DNA of 43,899 bases, taken from positions 1 through 43,899 of IMG/VR virus record IMGVR_UViG_3300017779_000024; one strand, 5' to 3'. How positions within the stretch are numbered: the first letter of the stretch is position 1; each line of letters starts with the position of its first letter. Positions 8,549-41,152 of the stretch are shown here, in pieces. Both the position numbers and the translations under genes were made by a program. The notes under the pieces were generated by a model. That model did no database searches. It saw only the letters and a program-made list of their open reading frames with translations, and was not told the DNA's origin. The DNA comes from a virus.

Positions 8549-9500
8549 CTTTCTCGAATCTTAGTAATAATTTTAATAAATATTTATGCAGCGGAGTATC
8601 ACCTTTTTTTGCTAACTTAAATAATGTTTCAGACTGCTTTGGATTAAATACATACTCTCCCCCAGTAAGCTCTGCTTCCTTTACTCCGCTTTCCTCATCG
8701 ACAACAGCTTTTTTGTTTGTGTCGTGATCGAACTCCCCTTCTGTAACAAATGGAGCTTCTTTAGTTTTACCGCCCACTCTGTAACCCACCATACCTCCGT
8801 CTTCCATACTAAGACCTACAGCTGCACCAGCAATACCCCCAATACCACTAGCTACGTTAGCAAAGTTTTGTGTTCTTTGCTGATTAGCTTGGGCTACCCT
8901 TGCCTCGCCTAAAGCTTTAGCGTCGTATGCATACTGTAAATCTTGCTGACTACGAGCCTCTCGTAACTGAGTAGTTCTTTCTTGAGCAGCCCCTAACTGC
9001 ATAAGAGCTTGAGACTGAAGCTTCTGTTGAGTAAGAGCCTCTTCCCTTTGCGACCTTTGAGCTTGTGATGTAGCTCCAGCTAAAGCACCTAACCCCCTAG
9101 CGCCAAACTGTGTAGCAGCTTGCGTTGTAGTAGCTAACGATCTATTTATATCGTCCATCCTCATCTGCAAAAGCCTTTGATCATACGCCCCTTTTACACC
9201 TTCGTAGTAAGCTGACGGTGTAGATAAAGACGGTTGGCTTGCACGAGCTTCACGCAATTCTGCTAACGCTGCATCTAAAGAAGCTGTAGCATCAGCTTCT
9301 AACTGCCCTTGATTCATCATGCCAGCAATACCTCCAACAAGCGAGCCTAATCCTGCAGCTCCCCCTGCTATTGCTGACGCTTGCCCTTGTGTTATCCCAC
9401 CTCTTCTTCCTGAACCACCTCCGCCACCACCGCTACCGCTATCATCTGTAGTTGTTTCTTCTGATGTAGTTCCGTTTTGTTCTTCTTCTCCGTTAGTCAT
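8541..9500 (-). CDS. Small internal virion protein, Gly-rich
   Basis: A 319-residue protein with a poly-Gly segment (residues 24-29), two Gly/Ala hydrophobic stretches (about 42-62 and 213-231), a Gln/Ala-rich helical middle part and a C-terminal motif GGEYVFNPKQ (280-289). That motif, with a following Lys-rich helix, is common in tail-tip or internal virion proteins of podoviruses. It lies between the tail-tube protein and the hydrolase-bearing virion protein and overlaps the latter by 8 bases. It is probably packaged and may insert in membranes during ejection. No enzymatic motif is seen. Confidence 0.7.
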   Translation of the reverse strand: MTNGEEEQNGTTSEETTTDDSGSGGGGGGSGRRGGITQGQASAIAGGAAGLGSLVGGIAGMMNQGQLEADATASLDAALAELREARASQPSLSTPSAYYEGVKGAYDQRLLQMRMDDINRSLATTTQAATQFGARGLGALAGATSQAQRSQREEALTQQKLQSQALMQLGAAQERTTQLREARSQQDLQYAYDAKALGEARVAQANQQRTQNFANVASGIGGIAGAAVGLSMEDGGMVGYRVGGKTKEAPFVTEGEFDHDTNKKAVVDEESGVKEAELTGGEYVFNPKQSETLFKLAKKGDTPLHKYLLKLLLRFEKDV

Positions 9501-26443: not shown

Positions 26444-28654
26444 TTAAGTTGTTAAGTTAAACACTAGTTCTATAGTCATGTTTTGACCACCATCAGGATC
26501 TTCAGTTGGATCTATCCTGATAGCCATAGACTCACCTTGAACAAACGTGTTTGTTACAGAAGTAAAATCAAGCTCTACGGTAGCTTCTGCACCAACACTA
26601 TCAGTAAGAGCTCCTTTGGCTGTACTAACTTGATTGCCAGCTGTGCCTCCATACAATTTTACCTCTGTACTTCCCATATCAGTTTCGCTTCTTAACCAAA
26701 TGGTTTTAACAAACCCGTCGTAAGGAAATGTAAAGTGCGTATACTCTGGTGAAGATGTAGATGTATTTTGTTCACTAATACTTCCATTTAGAGGTACGTA
26801 TCTAGCAAAAGGAAAGTTTAAGAAAAAACCAGAGTTAAGAAAGTGATGGTGAACATTTGTTGTCTGTATTTCATTACCCTCAATAGTAACTTTACCAGCA
26901 GCTGATCTAGCTATAGTAGTATCTAACGCACCACCTATTTCTATTGTGCCGCCTAGTTTTAATCCACCAGGAACGTCTAAAAGTCCACTTTGAGGATTAT
27001 AAACAAAACCAGATGTATCATCTAAAAGATTGTTTGACTCGTCATGAAACACTACAGGAAAATCAGTGTCAGCATTGCTATCGGCAACACTAACCCCACC
27101 TGCAACAGCTGCGATACGATCATTAATAGCAGCAGATGTCATTAGGTGTTCATCAGAATCTACAAACTCACCCGCTAAATCTATATCATTAACAGCATGA
27201 CCGCCCAGCTTAAGTGCTGTTGTTACTGTTAGGTTTCCAGATATCGTAGTAATTGAGGCAGCTCCGCTAGCTACGGTTACATCAATCTCTGCGTCAGCAT
27301 CGCCATCTACAAGAATCAACCCGCTTTCAAGGTTTCCACCAGGACCATCGTGAGAAGCTACTTGTAAGCTAAGCTTACCCCCTTCAGATCCAGCATCAGA
27401 CTCTTCAATCTCAGCAAGTATCCTAGCATAATTATTTATGCCGTCACCAGTGTCGCTTGCTGTAAACTCTATCAACCCAATATCAAATCCGTCTGTTTTT
27501 GAAGTGCTTTTCTTAAGTCGTATAATACAAGGAAGGCTACTAGCATTAGTATTGTCCAGTTCAAAAGTAGGCCCTCCTACAGAGCCAGCGCCAGTTAATG
27601 TTAACTTCTCAGAGCTAGAGAACCCAGCAGGGGCAAAATGTAAGTTAGAATAAGATTGAACAGCGCTAGTTCCGTTTCCAACAAGAATTTGACCTGATGT
27701 ATAATCTGTACCTCCTGTACCGCCATTGGCAACACTTAAAGCCGTGCCCAATGTTAGACCTGTTGTTACTGAAAGATTCCCAGCTACCGTAGTAAGCGAA
27801 GCAGACCCATTACCAACAGTTACATCAACCTCACCGCTAGCGCTTCCATCTTGTAATACTAAACCATTAGCTAAAGTTCCGTCATGAGAAGCTACTTTAA
27901 GCTCAAGCTTTCCTCCTTCTTGACCATGTGTTGCCTCAGCAATAGACCCTACTATTTTCACATAATCTTGATTGGCATTACCTGAAGCATCATCCCCATT
28001 CCACTCTATAGTTCCTAACACATCGCTATTTGCTCCGTCTGAAGGGTTAGAAAATAGCAACAAACCACCACCGCTAGCATCATTAATACTATTTAAAGAT
28101 AAAGTTGGCGCTGTAGATGCATCAATTCCAGTTATTTGCAATAGACTAGCAGTGCTAGTAAAAGTTAAAAGACTTGAAGTTTCTACTGCGCTTGTTCCAT
28201 TGCCTATAAGAATATTAGCATCTGTTAAAGATGTAGCTCCTGTACCTCCATCGCTAACTGATAATGTTCCAGTAATAGAAGAAGCCCCAAGATCAACAGC
28301 TAACTTATTTGACTCTATAACTAAACCTCCGTCAGATTTTAAGTCAGTAGATAAAGTACCTGTCGTCAAGTCTAAGCCGTCACCAGCTGTAAATGTAGTT
28401 CCTGCAGCACCTGCTGCACCAGTAGCGCCAGTGGCACCAGTAGCACCAGTAGCACCAGTAGCACCAGTTTCTCCTTGAGGTCCTTGTGGTCCTTGTGGAC
28501 CAATACCGACATCTACAGATAAAGTATTCTGGGTTTGTATAGCTGTAGTATGCACATTGGTAGTGCTAGATAAAGCTAAGTTTACCTCGTCACTGCCTAC
28601 GGCCTGCGTAAGCACATTAGTGCCTGTCGATATGCTTAAATTTATATCGCTCAT
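26444..28654 (-). CDS. Tail fibre with collagen-like segment
   Basis: A 736-residue protein. Residues 52-84 are 11 Gly-X-Y triplets (three GPQ, then GET, repeated GAT and GAA), a collagen-like trimerisation stalk. After it, two similar units each contain GGTG-x(n)-LVGNGTSAV and EGGKLxLxVASHDG...DVTV...SGNLTVTT, showing an internal duplication of about 200 residues. The C-terminal part (about 650-736) is beta-rich and may bind the receptor. The ATG overlaps the upstream gene by 4 bases (ATGA). Fibre identity is well supported by the stalk, the repeats and the position after the portal. Confidence 0.8.
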   Translation of the reverse strand: MSDINLSISTGTNVLTQAVGSDEVNLALSSTTNVHTTAIQTQNTLSVDVGIGPQGPQGPQGETGATGATGATGATGATGAAGAAGTTFTAGDGLDLTTGTLSTDLKSDGGLVIESNKLAVDLGASSITGTLSVSDGGTGATSLTDANILIGNGTSAVETSSLLTFTSTASLLQITGIDASTAPTLSLNSINDASGGGLLLFSNPSDGANSDVLGTIEWNGDDASGNANQDYVKIVGSIAEATHGQEGGKLELKVASHDGTLANGLVLQDGSASGEVDVTVGNGSASLTTVAGNLSVTTGLTLGTALSVANGGTGGTDYTSGQILVGNGTSAVQSYSNLHFAPAGFSSSEKLTLTGAGSVGGPTFELDNTNASSLPCIIRLKKSTSKTDGFDIGLIEFTASDTGDGINNYARILAEIEESDAGSEGGKLSLQVASHDGPGGNLESGLILVDGDADAEIDVTVASGAASITTISGNLTVTTALKLGGHAVNDIDLAGEFVDSDEHLMTSAAINDRIAAVAGGVSVADSNADTDFPVVFHDESNNLLDDTSGFVYNPQSGLLDVPGGLKLGGTIEIGGALDTTIARSAAGKVTIEGNEIQTTNVHHHFLNSGFFLNFPFARYVPLNGSISEQNTSTSSPEYTHFTFPYDGFVKTIWLRSETDMGSTEVKLYGGTAGNQVSTAKGALTDSVGAEATVELDFTSVTNTFVQGESMAIRIDPTEDPDGGQNMTIELVFNLTT
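28395..28500 (-). repeat. Short tandem repeat encoding the collagen-like stalk
   Basis: On the plus strand the 9-mer CACCAGTAG-like unit is repeated several times at about 28417-28468, and GGTCCTTGT repeats follow. It encodes the Gly-Ala-Thr and Gly-Pro-Gln triplets. Such repeats change length easily, so stalk length may vary between phages. Confidence 0.75.
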
Positions 28655-33827: not shown

Positions 33828-34115
33828 TTATTTTTTAGAAAAACGTTCTGCAAAACCACTACTGTAATCAACCTCTTCTTCTATCTTTCCGTTGCTAGAA
33901 AGATCTTTTAACATCTGCTCTAGCTTCTGGCGCTCTATAAGAAGCTCTTTACAATCTATAGCAGTTTGCTTTATAGACTGAAGCTCAGCCTTACGTGCAC
34001 TACCATTGATTTCTTGATCGACGGGTTTTTTAATCTCGCTGATCATATTATCTATAGCTTGCTCCATAGAGGTCATAAGCCTCTTAGCTGCACTCGCTGT
34101 CGTGAACTTTGGCAT
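33828..34115 (-). CDS. Small coiled-coil protein, possible terminase partner
   Basis: A 95-residue mostly helical protein (ELLIERQKLEQMLKDL), N-terminal Ala/Lys-rich. It lies two genes before TerL and overlaps the end of the GroES-like gene by 32 bases. A small terminase role is possible since no other candidate is near, but it is short and no DNA-binding motif is visible. Confidence 0.55.
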   Translation of the reverse strand: MPKFTTASAAKRLMTSMEQAIDNMISEIKKPVDQEINGSARKAELQSIKQTAIDCKELLIERQKLEQMLKDLSSNGKIEEEVDYSSGFAERFSKK

Positions 34116-34689
34116 ATACTATATCGTCTACTCTCATTCTATAAACTACATCGCCATTATCTAGCTTTATTTTATAGTCAGAGTTTTTATCAAAAACCAC
34201 AATGTCTCCTGGCTTTACGCCTTGAGCTTCTAACTCAGGATGAGGCATATATATCTCAGCTTCATTAGCCAACTCTTTCTGTGTAGCGAGTTCCGTTATG
34301 ATACCACTTTCAGTGACATCATCCTCCCTTTCATCTACAGGCAAAACAAACAGCCAGTCACAAAGCATATGTAACTCACCAGAATCCTTTTCTCTATAAG
34401 CTATAGCTTGGCTCATCCTACCGTTTTCTGGATCGTAAAGAACAAGGTGTCTTTTGTCCCCTAAGTTTAGAGCTGGGTTTGTCGTTACGTGATGATGAAA
34501 TATAAGAGTATCGCCAGGCTTACACTGTAGCTCTGGGTGTTTCATAGGTCCCGTGATAATTTCTCCGTAGGAAATCCTATGCTCAAACTCGTTAAATTTA
34601 TTTTCTAGGAATATTTCTTTATCCCCAACCTTTAAAGTGTCCTCAACTTTCTTTGGGACACTTACAATAAAATGGTATACAGCCTTCAT
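34084..34689 (-). CDS. Tandem GroES-like (co-chaperonin) protein
   Basis: A 201-residue protein that reads as two GroES-like halves. The second half is clear: LFVLPVDE at the start, then HPELEAQGVKPGDIVVFDKNSDYKI and MRVDDIVYAKV, matching the GroES end with V-GD-V-F and the final DI-A strand. The first half has the parallel HPELQCKPGDTLIFHHHV, so the protein is an internal duplication. A single GroES chain is about 97 residues. It may cap the host GroEL to help fold the capsid protein, as phage T4 gp31 does; that role is inferred. It is placed two genes before TerL. Confidence 0.72.
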   Translation of the reverse strand: MKAVYHFIVSVPKKVEDTLKVGDKEIFLENKFNEFEHRISYGEIITGPMKHPELQCKPGDTLIFHHHVTTNPALNLGDKRHLVLYDPENGRMSQAIAYREKDSGELHMLCDWLFVLPVDEREDDVTESGIITELATQKELANEAEIYMPHPELEAQGVKPGDIVVFDKNSDYKIKLDNGDVVYRMRVDDIVYAKVHDSECS

Positions 34690-39336: not shown

Positions 39337-39583
39337 CTTTATTCAATTTAAAAAATTCTTCAACACGTTTCTTATCTACAGACTTTTGATATTCCTCAAG
39401 GTCAACACCATCCATACTTGCAAAATCTTCCTGCAAATCATCTAATTGTTTTTTGTATTGACCAGCAGTAATCTCCCAAGCGATAGCTTTTTCTAGAAGC
39501 TGGCTTTTCGTATGCGCCTTTAATAAAGCTTTGATTTGTTCTTTACTAAGAACGTTCTTTAGTTTAAACTCTTGATCACTCAT
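39296..39583 (-). CDS. Small helical acidic protein of unknown function
   Basis: A 95-residue acidic, helical protein (LSKEQIKALLKAHTKSQLLEKAIAWEI ... DLQEDFASMDG). Starts within the end of the upstream gene (8-base overlap). Resembles small phage host-interaction proteins only in size; function unknown. Confidence 0.6.
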   Translation of the reverse strand: MSDQEFKLKNVLSKEQIKALLKAHTKSQLLEKAIAWEITAGQYKKQLDDLQEDFASMDGVDLEEYQKSVDKKRVEEFFKLNKDELQNEQDNKEES

Positions 39584-39854
39584 CGCTACCCTCTATTGTA
39601 AATGTAGGATCAGTGCAGTAAACAAAGATTGGTGTCTTTGGCCCTACATAACTCCCAGCAATATTATAATCGAAATGCTCCATGGCATCTTCACGAGTCA
39701 TCCCATCGTCTCTTTGAAGGATATCTAAAACCTGGTCTATATCGTAGACAGCTTTAGTTTCTAACCCATAACTGAAACCTATGAGGGCTTCATCAAATCC
39801 AGTGGCAACGAGGCATTCGTTGTCTTCTAGGATCTCTAGTATGTATTTATTCAT
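39576..39854 (-). CDS. Small conserved phage protein
   Basis: A 92-residue protein starting MNKYILEILEDNECLVATGFDEALIGF, then VYDIDQVLDILQRDDGMTREDAMEHFDYNIAGSYVGPKTPIF. The GMTxEDAxEHFxxNxxGxYVGxxTPIF pattern recurs in many phages of unrelated hosts, without known function. It is the first gene of the leftward array, next to the gene-free region. Confidence 0.72.
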   Translation of the reverse strand: MNKYILEILEDNECLVATGFDEALIGFSYGLETKAVYDIDQVLDILQRDDGMTREDAMEHFDYNIAGSYVGPKTPIFVYCTDPTFTIEGSDE

Positions 39855-40069
39855 ATGTATTTAATTTAATTATATAGCTATCCCTAGTCACTACTTATCA
39901 TATACTAGACAAGTAATATAAGACTCTAATCGGTAGTAGGAGTATATTTAATTTACTTACGTAATCTACCTCTGAACAACCCAGGTCAAAGTCCTTAAGA
40001 CCTTTGGCCATATGGTTGTGACTAAAGTCGTAGCAAAGTTACTACAAAAAATTTAAAAAGTCAAGTCCT

Positions 40070-40126
40070 AAAAAAAGAATCTTCGTGGTCGGCACGTTTT
40101 AGGTGCCTCCCCTACGATTCTGTTTT
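40070..40126. terminator. Bidirectional terminator or attenuator hairpin
   Basis: Arms AGAAT (40076-40080)/ATTCT (40117-40121), CGT/ACG, GG/CC and GGCAC (40091-40095)/GTGCC (40103-40107) make an imperfect 15-bp hairpin with a 7-base loop. It is flanked by seven A on the left (T7 on the minus strand) and TTTT on the right (plus strand), so it can work both ways. It may terminate transcripts meeting in the control region. Confidence 0.65.
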
Positions 40127-40143
40127 GTTACACCACAACGTCA

Positions 40144-40155
40144 TAGCAATTGCTA
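40144..40155. promoter_or_regulatory. 12-bp palindrome, possible operator
   Basis: TAGCAATTGCTA is a perfect 12-bp palindrome between the terminator hairpin and the plus-strand array. Dyads of this size are typical operator half-site pairs; the binding protein is not known. Confidence 0.4.
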
Positions 40156-40210
40156 ATATTGCGTACACTAAAAATATTATTATACAAGTCATATTCAATT
40201 GTTTGTTACA

Positions 40211-40219
40211 GCAAATTTA
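40211..40219 (-). promoter_or_regulatory. TAAATTTGC -7 box, minus strand
   Basis: On the minus strand TAAATTTGC fits TAnnTTTG followed by C, as in the five late boxes. It could start a transcript that meets the hairpin at 40076-40121 before the small conserved gene at 39854. No -33 TTG visible. Confidence 0.35.
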
Positions 40220-40513
40220 ATGAAAACACCCTTTACGAAGTGTTAAAAAAAATATCAGCTATACAGATCCTGGGGATTATACATACCTACAGCCGTTGGC
40301 GCACGCAAACCCAAACGCATCTGCAACCCCACCCCCCTGCAAATGCTTGGCTACCTGTCAAAACTTTTAGCTTTTTGCCCTTACAACTTTACAGCGACTT
40401 ATCCAAGTTTATTCTGTTAACAAACGCAAAGACAAAAAAGTCTGTGACAATCCCACCCCTGAACCGTTCAACCTGGCGAGCCACCCCCGACGGGGTGCGC
40501 TATACAAAAACTA

Positions 40514-40584
40514 TTTGACCTGTGCAACTATTTAACAAGTCTTCACATCTGTACCCCTATACAACTTTTTTTTGACCTGTGCAA
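40514..40584. repeat. 14-bp direct repeat TTTGACCTGTGCAA
   Basis: Two exact copies start 57 bp apart, at 40514 and 40571, upstream of the DnaA-box-like site and the rightward promoter. They could be operator or replication-initiator sites. Confidence 0.7.
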
Positions 40585-40649
40585 GGCCATTAACATTTGT
40601 TAACGTCAATTGTCTATATATCGCCTAATATGTTAAATCCATGTTAAAG

Positions 40650-40658
40650 TGTGGATAA
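40650..40658 (-). promoter_or_regulatory. DnaA-box match
   Basis: TGTGGATAA is the exact reverse complement of the consensus TTATCCACA. It is preceded by two ATGTTAAA copies at about 40630 and 40641 and lies 65 bases before the first rightward ATG. Functional use by the host DnaA is inferred. Confidence 0.5.
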
Positions 40659-40661
40659 AAC

Positions 40662-40693
40662 TTGTATTTATCAAAGTGATGTGCGTATATTAG
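40662..40693 (+). promoter_or_regulatory. Promoter of the rightward small-gene array
   Basis: TTG at 40662-40664, 21 bases, then TATATTAG at 40686-40693, close to TAnnTTTG. The ATG at 40715 follows 21 bases later with AAAGGA before it. It has the same layout as the moron promoter. Confidence 0.55.
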
Positions 40694-40714
40694 TACCAAG
40701 AAACAAAGGAACAA

Positions 40715-40906
40715 ATGAAAGTACTAAGCACCATACTACATGACAAACGCTACAGGCGTGAGTACTCTAACAAGACTTACAGCAGTAGCAAAGGCCAAAA
40801 GTCATCGAGGGCAAGAGCCATCACTGACCGCCTAGAGTGTGCATACTCTGACCGCATCGAGCGAGCAGATGAGCAACGCAACCAAAGACGCCGAGCGAGA
40901 GCATAA
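40715..40906 (+). CDS. Small Arg-rich protein, first gene of the rightward array
   Basis: A 63-residue basic, Ser/Arg-rich protein (MKVLSTILHDKRYRREYSNK ... RADEQRNQRRRARA). The gene has a promoter and an AAAGGA sequence 8 bases before the ATG, one of the few Shine-Dalgarno-like sites here. First genes of such arrays are often expressed right after infection; the charge suggests binding to nucleic acid or to a host complex. Family not recognised. Confidence 0.6.
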   Translation: MKVLSTILHDKRYRREYSNKTYSSSKGQKSSRARAITDRLECAYSDRIERADEQRNQRRRARA

Positions 40907-40922
40907 GCGCCGACAACATACG

Positions 40923-40944
40923 AGCCCGCCGAGATACTCGGGCT
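40923..40944 (+). other. Stem-loop after the first rightward gene
   Basis: AGCCCG (40923-40928) pairs with CGGGCT (40939-40944), with an alternative inner CGAG-ATA-CTCG. No T-run follows, so it is not a plain terminator. With the next hairpin it forms a structured 99-bp leader between two genes. Confidence 0.55.
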
Positions 40945-40967
40945 AGTGGAGACCACACGATAACAAC

Positions 40968-40990
40968 GGACACGGTGTAAAGCCGTGCCC
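40968..40990 (+). terminator. Weak terminator or leader hairpin
   Basis: GG-A-CACGG and CCGTG-C-CC pair around TGTAAAG, followed by TAAATTTTAA. It could thin out transcription after the first rightward gene or be a structured leader of the next one. Confidence 0.45.
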
Positions 40991-41005
40991 TAAATTTTAA
41001 TAGAT

Positions 41006-41152
41006 ATGAAAACTATAGATACACTTAACAAGCTAGCTATTGAGCTACATAGCAACAAGTATGAAGAATTAACTGACCGCCAAAAGCGAAAGGTATTAAG
41101 AGTAATAAATGAATATGTATACCCTAAAATTAAACTTAAAGAAACATGCTAG
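41006..41152 (+). CDS. Small helical protein of unknown function
   Basis: A 48-residue protein, MKTIDTLNKLAIELHSNKY and then DRQKRKVLRVINEYVYPKIK. The leader is AATAGAT directly before ATG. It overlaps the next gene by 7 bases (ATGCTAG). No motif recognised. Confidence 0.55.
   Translation: MKTIDTLNKLAIELHSNKYEELTDRQKRKVLRVINEYVYPKIKLKETC

Follow-up and report, generated by a model that had tools for sequence, protein, structure and literature searches.

A conserved single-copy DNA element between divergent gene blocks is a candidate replication origin core in an uncultivated Bacteroidetes-type phage

Our analysis favors a model in which an 860-bp intergenic region of an uncultivated marine phage (positions 39855–40714 of the window, by which we mean the whole 43,899-nt virus record analysed, for which there is no completeness estimate) combines an early/late switch with, as we infer, a probable replication origin whose core is a conserved DNA element at 40246–40319. 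We give this composite reading, drawn from sequence comparison, a probability of about 0.45. The element was overlooked in a preliminary description of the region and is its strongest feature. Under this model, late transcription would start near 40027 and run leftward, insulated by a terminator from the transcript of a small open reading frame, and early transcription would start near 40699 under the control of paired GTTAA boxes serving as operators for the product of the first early gene. The element between the two promoters would form the origin core, to which a DnaA-domain-IV-like protein made by the phage itself would bind; this protein would in turn recruit the primase-helicase encoded beside it.

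The leftward structural (late) genes reach 39854 and small rightward early genes begin at 40715, and the flanking arrays are thus divergent, as the preliminary description had stated. As read from the DNA, the layout (Table 1) is that of a phage of Bacteroidetes type with a single control region serving both directions. For comparison we assembled 80 relatives through a terminase search and eight loci through an early-gene search; one of the latter, L082, matches the window without a difference from 40335 onwards and continues past its end, for a combined length of ~52.4 kb. The whole region is present in three relatives (L084, L006 and G001) at 83–84% identity, and the first late gene is 92–98% conserved in the closest relatives. 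In distant relatives the terminase is 72–75% identical, and the intergenic DNA outside the element can hardly be aligned.

Table 1. Features in and beside the divergent region (window coordinates)
Feature	Position	Strand	Basis or remark
First gene of the leftward late/structural block	39576..39854	-	92 aa, phrog_13182 (unknown function)
Late-block promoter, TTG-N20-TAACTTTG, Bacteroidetes sigma-A type	40034..40064	-	Both boxes kept in all aligned relatives
Long hairpin followed by U-run, read as intrinsic terminator, upstream of late promoter	40066..40128	-	Folding, alignment
Hidden 26-aa ORF MTCIIIFLVYAILAIAMTLWCNKTES, hydrophobic	40112..40192	-	Conservation, pN/pS
TAAATTTG, possible -7 box of the small ORF	40212..40219	-	Conserved in relatives; no clear -33 box
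Single-copy conserved DNA element, core TGGGGATTATA - CG - ACCnAAACGCA, fixed spacing	40246..40319	+	Pattern scan, matrix
Second conserved block of the element, CTTTTAGCTTTTTG	40364..40377	+	~92 nt after GGGG
TGTTAACA box	40415..40422	.	Motif count, alignment
Short GC hairpin ACCCCCGACGGGGT	40478..40502	+	z -3.8; stem kept in relatives
Direct repeat copy 1, CTATACAA...TTTGACCTGTGCAA	40500..40527	+	Missing in L084
TTAACA box	40532..40537	-	Motif count, alignment
Direct repeat copy 2	40557..40584	+	Alignment
TTAAC direct-repeat pair, 10-bp period	40590..40604	.	Alignment, spacing count
GTTAA direct-repeat pair, 11-bp period, immediately upstream of early promoter	40631..40647	.	Alignment, spacing count
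Exact DnaA box TTATCCACA	40650..40658	-	Not conserved; relatives TGTCGATAA
Early promoter candidate, TTG-N21-TATATTAG	40662..40693	+	Alignment
First early gene	40715..40906	+	63-aa basic (R-rich) leader protein; candidate GTTAA-pair ligand

Comparison with distant relatives revealed a constant order of blocks around 40272: an A-tract, AGnnATA, TGGGGATTATA, CG, ACCnAAACGCA, a C-rich stretch in most sequences, and ACTTTTcAGCTTTTTG. The C-rich stretch may bear some resemblance to mitochondrial CSB/R-loop sites, a likeness on which we place no weight. A scan of viral contigs with the pattern GGGGATTATA-N27..35-AAACGCA, in which the counts at other gaps served as an internal control for chance, returned 62 viral stretches with a gap of exactly 31 and one to five at every other gap; the perfect conservation of both cores is partly owed to the search pattern, and single core bases can vary (G018, G006, G005 and L084). 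We derived a position matrix covering 74 positions from 43 dereplicated copies. In 13 near-complete genomes, of which the window is one, it gives a single match of 54–90 bits per genome, and no further match exceeds 12 bits. Eight of the 13 (G001, G005, G006, G010, G012, G018, G020 and G021) had been found through their terminase and not through the motif. In all 13 genomes the element lies, in the same orientation, in the divergent gap between mainly leftward and mainly rightward genes. It is thus a single-copy conserved non-coding site in genomes that share a replication module, as would be expected of a phage origin. In L084 (positions 8574–8630 of that contig) AT-rich sequence stands in place of the element's middle part, with the flanking blocks kept (29.6 bits); part of the element may be dispensable, or the contig may be odd.

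We consider the element to be a DNA site because it has neither RNA structure on either strand nor an open frame. The alifold energy is 0 on both strands, the mean single-sequence z is ~0 and Rfam has no match in the region, and we therefore rejected a structured non-coding RNA; a coding origin was rejected because most sequences have stops in every frame. Beyond this phage group, a search of 257 Gb of cellular genomes gave 60 pattern matches over all three allowed spacings, none of which passes the matrix, so that we attribute them to chance. Isolated phages gave no meaningful blast match to the element, a matrix scan found it in neither Flavobacterium phage elemo nor Manatee Spring podovirus MW202828, and a literature search with the core 10-mer returned no phage paper among the matches listed.

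A single-copy site in one orientation, common to phages of the same terminase family, could also be the place where the terminase acts, that is, a pac or cut site, possibly with short direct terminal repeats of ~190 nt. The contig ends lend some weight to this idea: 17 of 74 contigs break within 300 nt of the element on its early (downstream) side as against one on the late side, the ends favor the interval 76–266 nt downstream, with six at 193–202 nt, and the G010 contig, whose two 189-nt ends are identical, has its first base 7 nt inside the core and its last 195 nt past it. However, the contig ends share no common motif, in other complete genomes the point of closure is elsewhere or the sequence continues across the element, and a weakly P22-like portal favors headful packaging. 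Moreover, known pac and cos sites lie within or beside terS/terL, whereas the element is beside neither and sits 6–12 kb from the terminase large-subunit gene. On balance we regard a packaging site as unlikely. In the set L157–L245, the interval 76–266 nt past the element on its early side has ~5-fold more contig ends than the DNA beyond it; the excess may come from differences between strains, from structure or from physical ends.

The candidate initiator is a 118-aa early protein whose gene overlaps that of a BT4734/DnaB primase-helicase. The window's protein itself has no Pfam or PHROG match and falls below the threshold of Bac_DnaA_C (PF08299). An iterated profile search nonetheless finds its family in all near-complete relatives whose sequence includes the replication block; G012 and G011, in which neither this family nor the primase-helicase was found, both look truncated in that part. 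Homologues in G006 and G021 and the DnaA_C protein of G005 exceed the Bac_DnaA_C cut-off, and the best PDB match of the family profile is 1j1v, domain IV of E. coli DnaA in complex with a DnaA box (E 0.0011). An AlphaFold model of the protein (pLDDT 84.8) has DnaA domain IV complexes as its first two PDB neighbours, again with 1j1v at the top (TM 0.50–0.67, with weak E values of 0.5–0.6). Each of these lines is moderate, but because profile, homologues and predicted fold carry joint weight we think it likely that the protein is a stand-alone DnaA domain IV. Its link to the element is one of co-occurrence only. The resemblance to bacterial DnaA domain IV extends to the helix-turn-helix motif (GRDHTTV there, GMDRTTM here), the fold and the adjacent primase-helicase; in contrast to bacterial DnaA, the domain stands alone without an AAA+ module, and the canonical DnaA box is not conserved in the region. 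These features raise a bolder proposal, namely that in a widespread group of uncultivated Bacteroidetes phages replication begins at one previously undescribed element, a site no longer recognisable as a canonical DnaA box, through an initiator that has retained just the DNA-binding module of DnaA (a stand-alone domain IV) and acts with a primase-helicase; we regard this full form as doubtful.

The preliminary description had also placed a replication origin here, partly on the strength of an exact DnaA box and with GC skew and motif conservation in related phages among its checks. The box exists: TGTGGATAA / TTATCCACA occurs at 40650 and nowhere else in the window. The relatives read TGTCGATAA at this place, and the weight given to the box was therefore misplaced; lacking conservation, it is ruled out as the key feature. 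An oriC-type origin would have several conserved DnaA boxes (TTATNCACA), and no box cluster was found in the genomes scanned. The sequence TGGGGATTA agrees with the DnaA box TGTGGATAA at seven of nine positions, which by a rough estimate is not significant for the length searched. GC skew does not help to place an origin because it turns where gene orientation turns: in six genomes the cumulative maximum coincides with the convergent gene end 10–16 kb away and not with the antipode 27–33 kb away, and none of the six has a skew reversal independent of gene orientation. We have accordingly discarded skew as origin evidence. An origin thus remains plausible through the element and the DnaA-like protein, although the box and the skew both fail: the evidence originally named does not hold, better evidence adjoins it, and the earlier account had the place right and the meaning half right.

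TGTTAA/TTAACA motifs fared better: the condition set in the preliminary description, that a lack of conservation would count against its reading, applies to the box but not to them. All those listed in the preliminary description are present, together with one it missed at 40241, giving eight sites in 860 bp where 1.7 are expected, a number that none of 2000 dinucleotide shuffles matches. The region is the densest place for this motif within the window, and the motif is conserved in related phages, with most GTTAA boxes kept in the alignment; in an unbiased k-mer scan TGTTAA also forms the strongest cluster in G006 (13 in 400 bp). Across four lineages (the window's, G005, G006 and G010) there are 14 same-strand GTTAA/TTAAC pairs at 10–11 bp, 13 of them at exactly 10, compared with a mean of 1.2 and a maximum of 7 in 5000 random placements. 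Among 44 dereplicated loci, pairs occur at nine of the ten with the leader-gene family and at two of the 34 without it (Fisher P 7e-7, over loci that are not independent). The exceptions are L205, with a leader and no pairs, L202, with pairs and no leader found, and G006, where the pairs accompany a divergent arginine-rich leader.

Because the 10-bp direct repeats co-occur with the first early gene, the GTTAA pairs look like operators of the leader protein rather than iterons. Their period is near the helical repeat and iteron-like, and all carrier genomes searched encode the DnaA-like protein, which could mean that this protein binds them as iterons and that they mark the origin. Yet the repeats are absent from most relatives that have the DnaA-like protein, and they track the leader gene instead, which makes an iteron origin quite improbable. 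The claim of an early switch, on the other hand, has good support in the divergent promoters and in direct repeats that look like operators and are kept in relatives. Indeed, the element and the GTTAA boxes could all be sites for phage regulators of the early/late switch, with replication starting elsewhere. The position of the element between divergent promoters is consistent with such a purely transcriptional role, as are GTTAA repeats that resemble tandem transcription-factor half-sites and follow the leader gene. Against it, at least ~200 nt separate the element from either core promoter, and its conservation extends across ~75–110 nt with fixed spacing; it also occurs once per genome and is kept where the leader gene and the GTTAA boxes are replaced. 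We consider this alternative rather unlikely from the sequence comparisons, and prefer an origin core embedded in a switch.

The same part of the region contains the duplicated 14-mer reported earlier, which we recovered as exact TTTGACCTGTGCAA at 40514 and 40571 within longer 28-nt direct repeats. L084 has lost one 28-nt copy by deletion between the repeats, and that copy is therefore dispensable. In the gap past the first early gene (40906–41006) are two hairpins, AGCCCG..CGGGCT and GGACACGG..CCGTGCCC, the former of which is also kept in G005.

On the late side, the promoter assignment draws on the Bacteroidetes sigma-A type -7 consensus TAnnTTTG (PMC9723704). E. coli-type sigma-70 promoters and terminators were rejected as a description of the region, their counts being no higher than in shuffles. 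The long hairpin noted previously is confirmed at 40066–40128: on the minus strand it folds with -20.4 kcal/mol (z -4.1; none of 200 shuffles is equally stable) and it is kept in the alignment of relatives. Between this hairpin and the promoter-like TAAATTTG at 40212 sits an open reading frame of 26 codons, MTCIIIFLVYAILAIAMTLWCNKTES in the window and MTALIVFSVYAILAIGMTLWCGEES in relatives, whose stop codon falls inside the terminator stem. Its six distinct sequences give a pN/pS of 0.28 and vary in length by a 3-nt indel, and the differences by codon position number 50/33/95, summed over non-independent pairs. Third-position bias, pN/pS and the 3-nt length difference together indicate that the region is therefore not gene-free, as had been thought, since it contains this conserved minus-strand frame at 40192–40112. 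The product is probably a single-pass membrane peptide; a search of distant relatives did not find it there.

Several known systems resemble this arrangement in part. Like lambda O-type iteron origins, it has direct repeats and AT-rich stretches in one small early-block region; unlike them, its repeats track the first early gene and not the initiator, the initiator gene is ~8 kb away, and in place of repeats the universal element consists of one composite site. Divergent control regions such as that of lambda immunity share the divergent promoters and the operator-like sites between gene blocks, whereas here no repressor or integrase was recognised and a large universal DNA element lies between the promoters. 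Further parallels are Elemovirus (Flavobacterium phage elemo) and MW202828, with terminases 39–47% identical and two divergent gene blocks; elemo has an initiator gene beside its primase-helicase and MW202828 a small gene annotated dnaA, but they differ in that neither has the element.

For a large group of marine phages that metagenomes have chiefly brought to light, these findings provide a precise candidate origin (or packaging or control site), and they add candidates for the initiator and for an early regulator. If the domain IV reading is true, it illustrates how phages can strip DnaA down to the domain that binds DNA and direct it to a new target. Since all near-complete members examined have one copy, the element can also serve as a compact diagnostic marker of the phage family.

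A promoter for a virion RNA polymerase was considered and set aside, the giant late protein of G001 having no D.D.D motif, which is a weak test. Six copies of TATATTTG (window 16494, 21441, 31480, 36114, 36874 and 38794) all lie on the late (minus) strand, 5–63 nt upstream of late gene starts and with no TTG -33 box at the normal spacing, and the same strand bias recurs in G001 (8:1), G006 (8:1), G005 (12:2) and G010 (5:1); these copies are possible activator-dependent late promoters. Short tandem repeats at 28416–28461 belong to a long late gene that has a GATGATGATG stretch of collagen type, and a gene for a GroES-like co-chaperonin (34084–34689) lies in the late block near the terminase, as in elemo phages.
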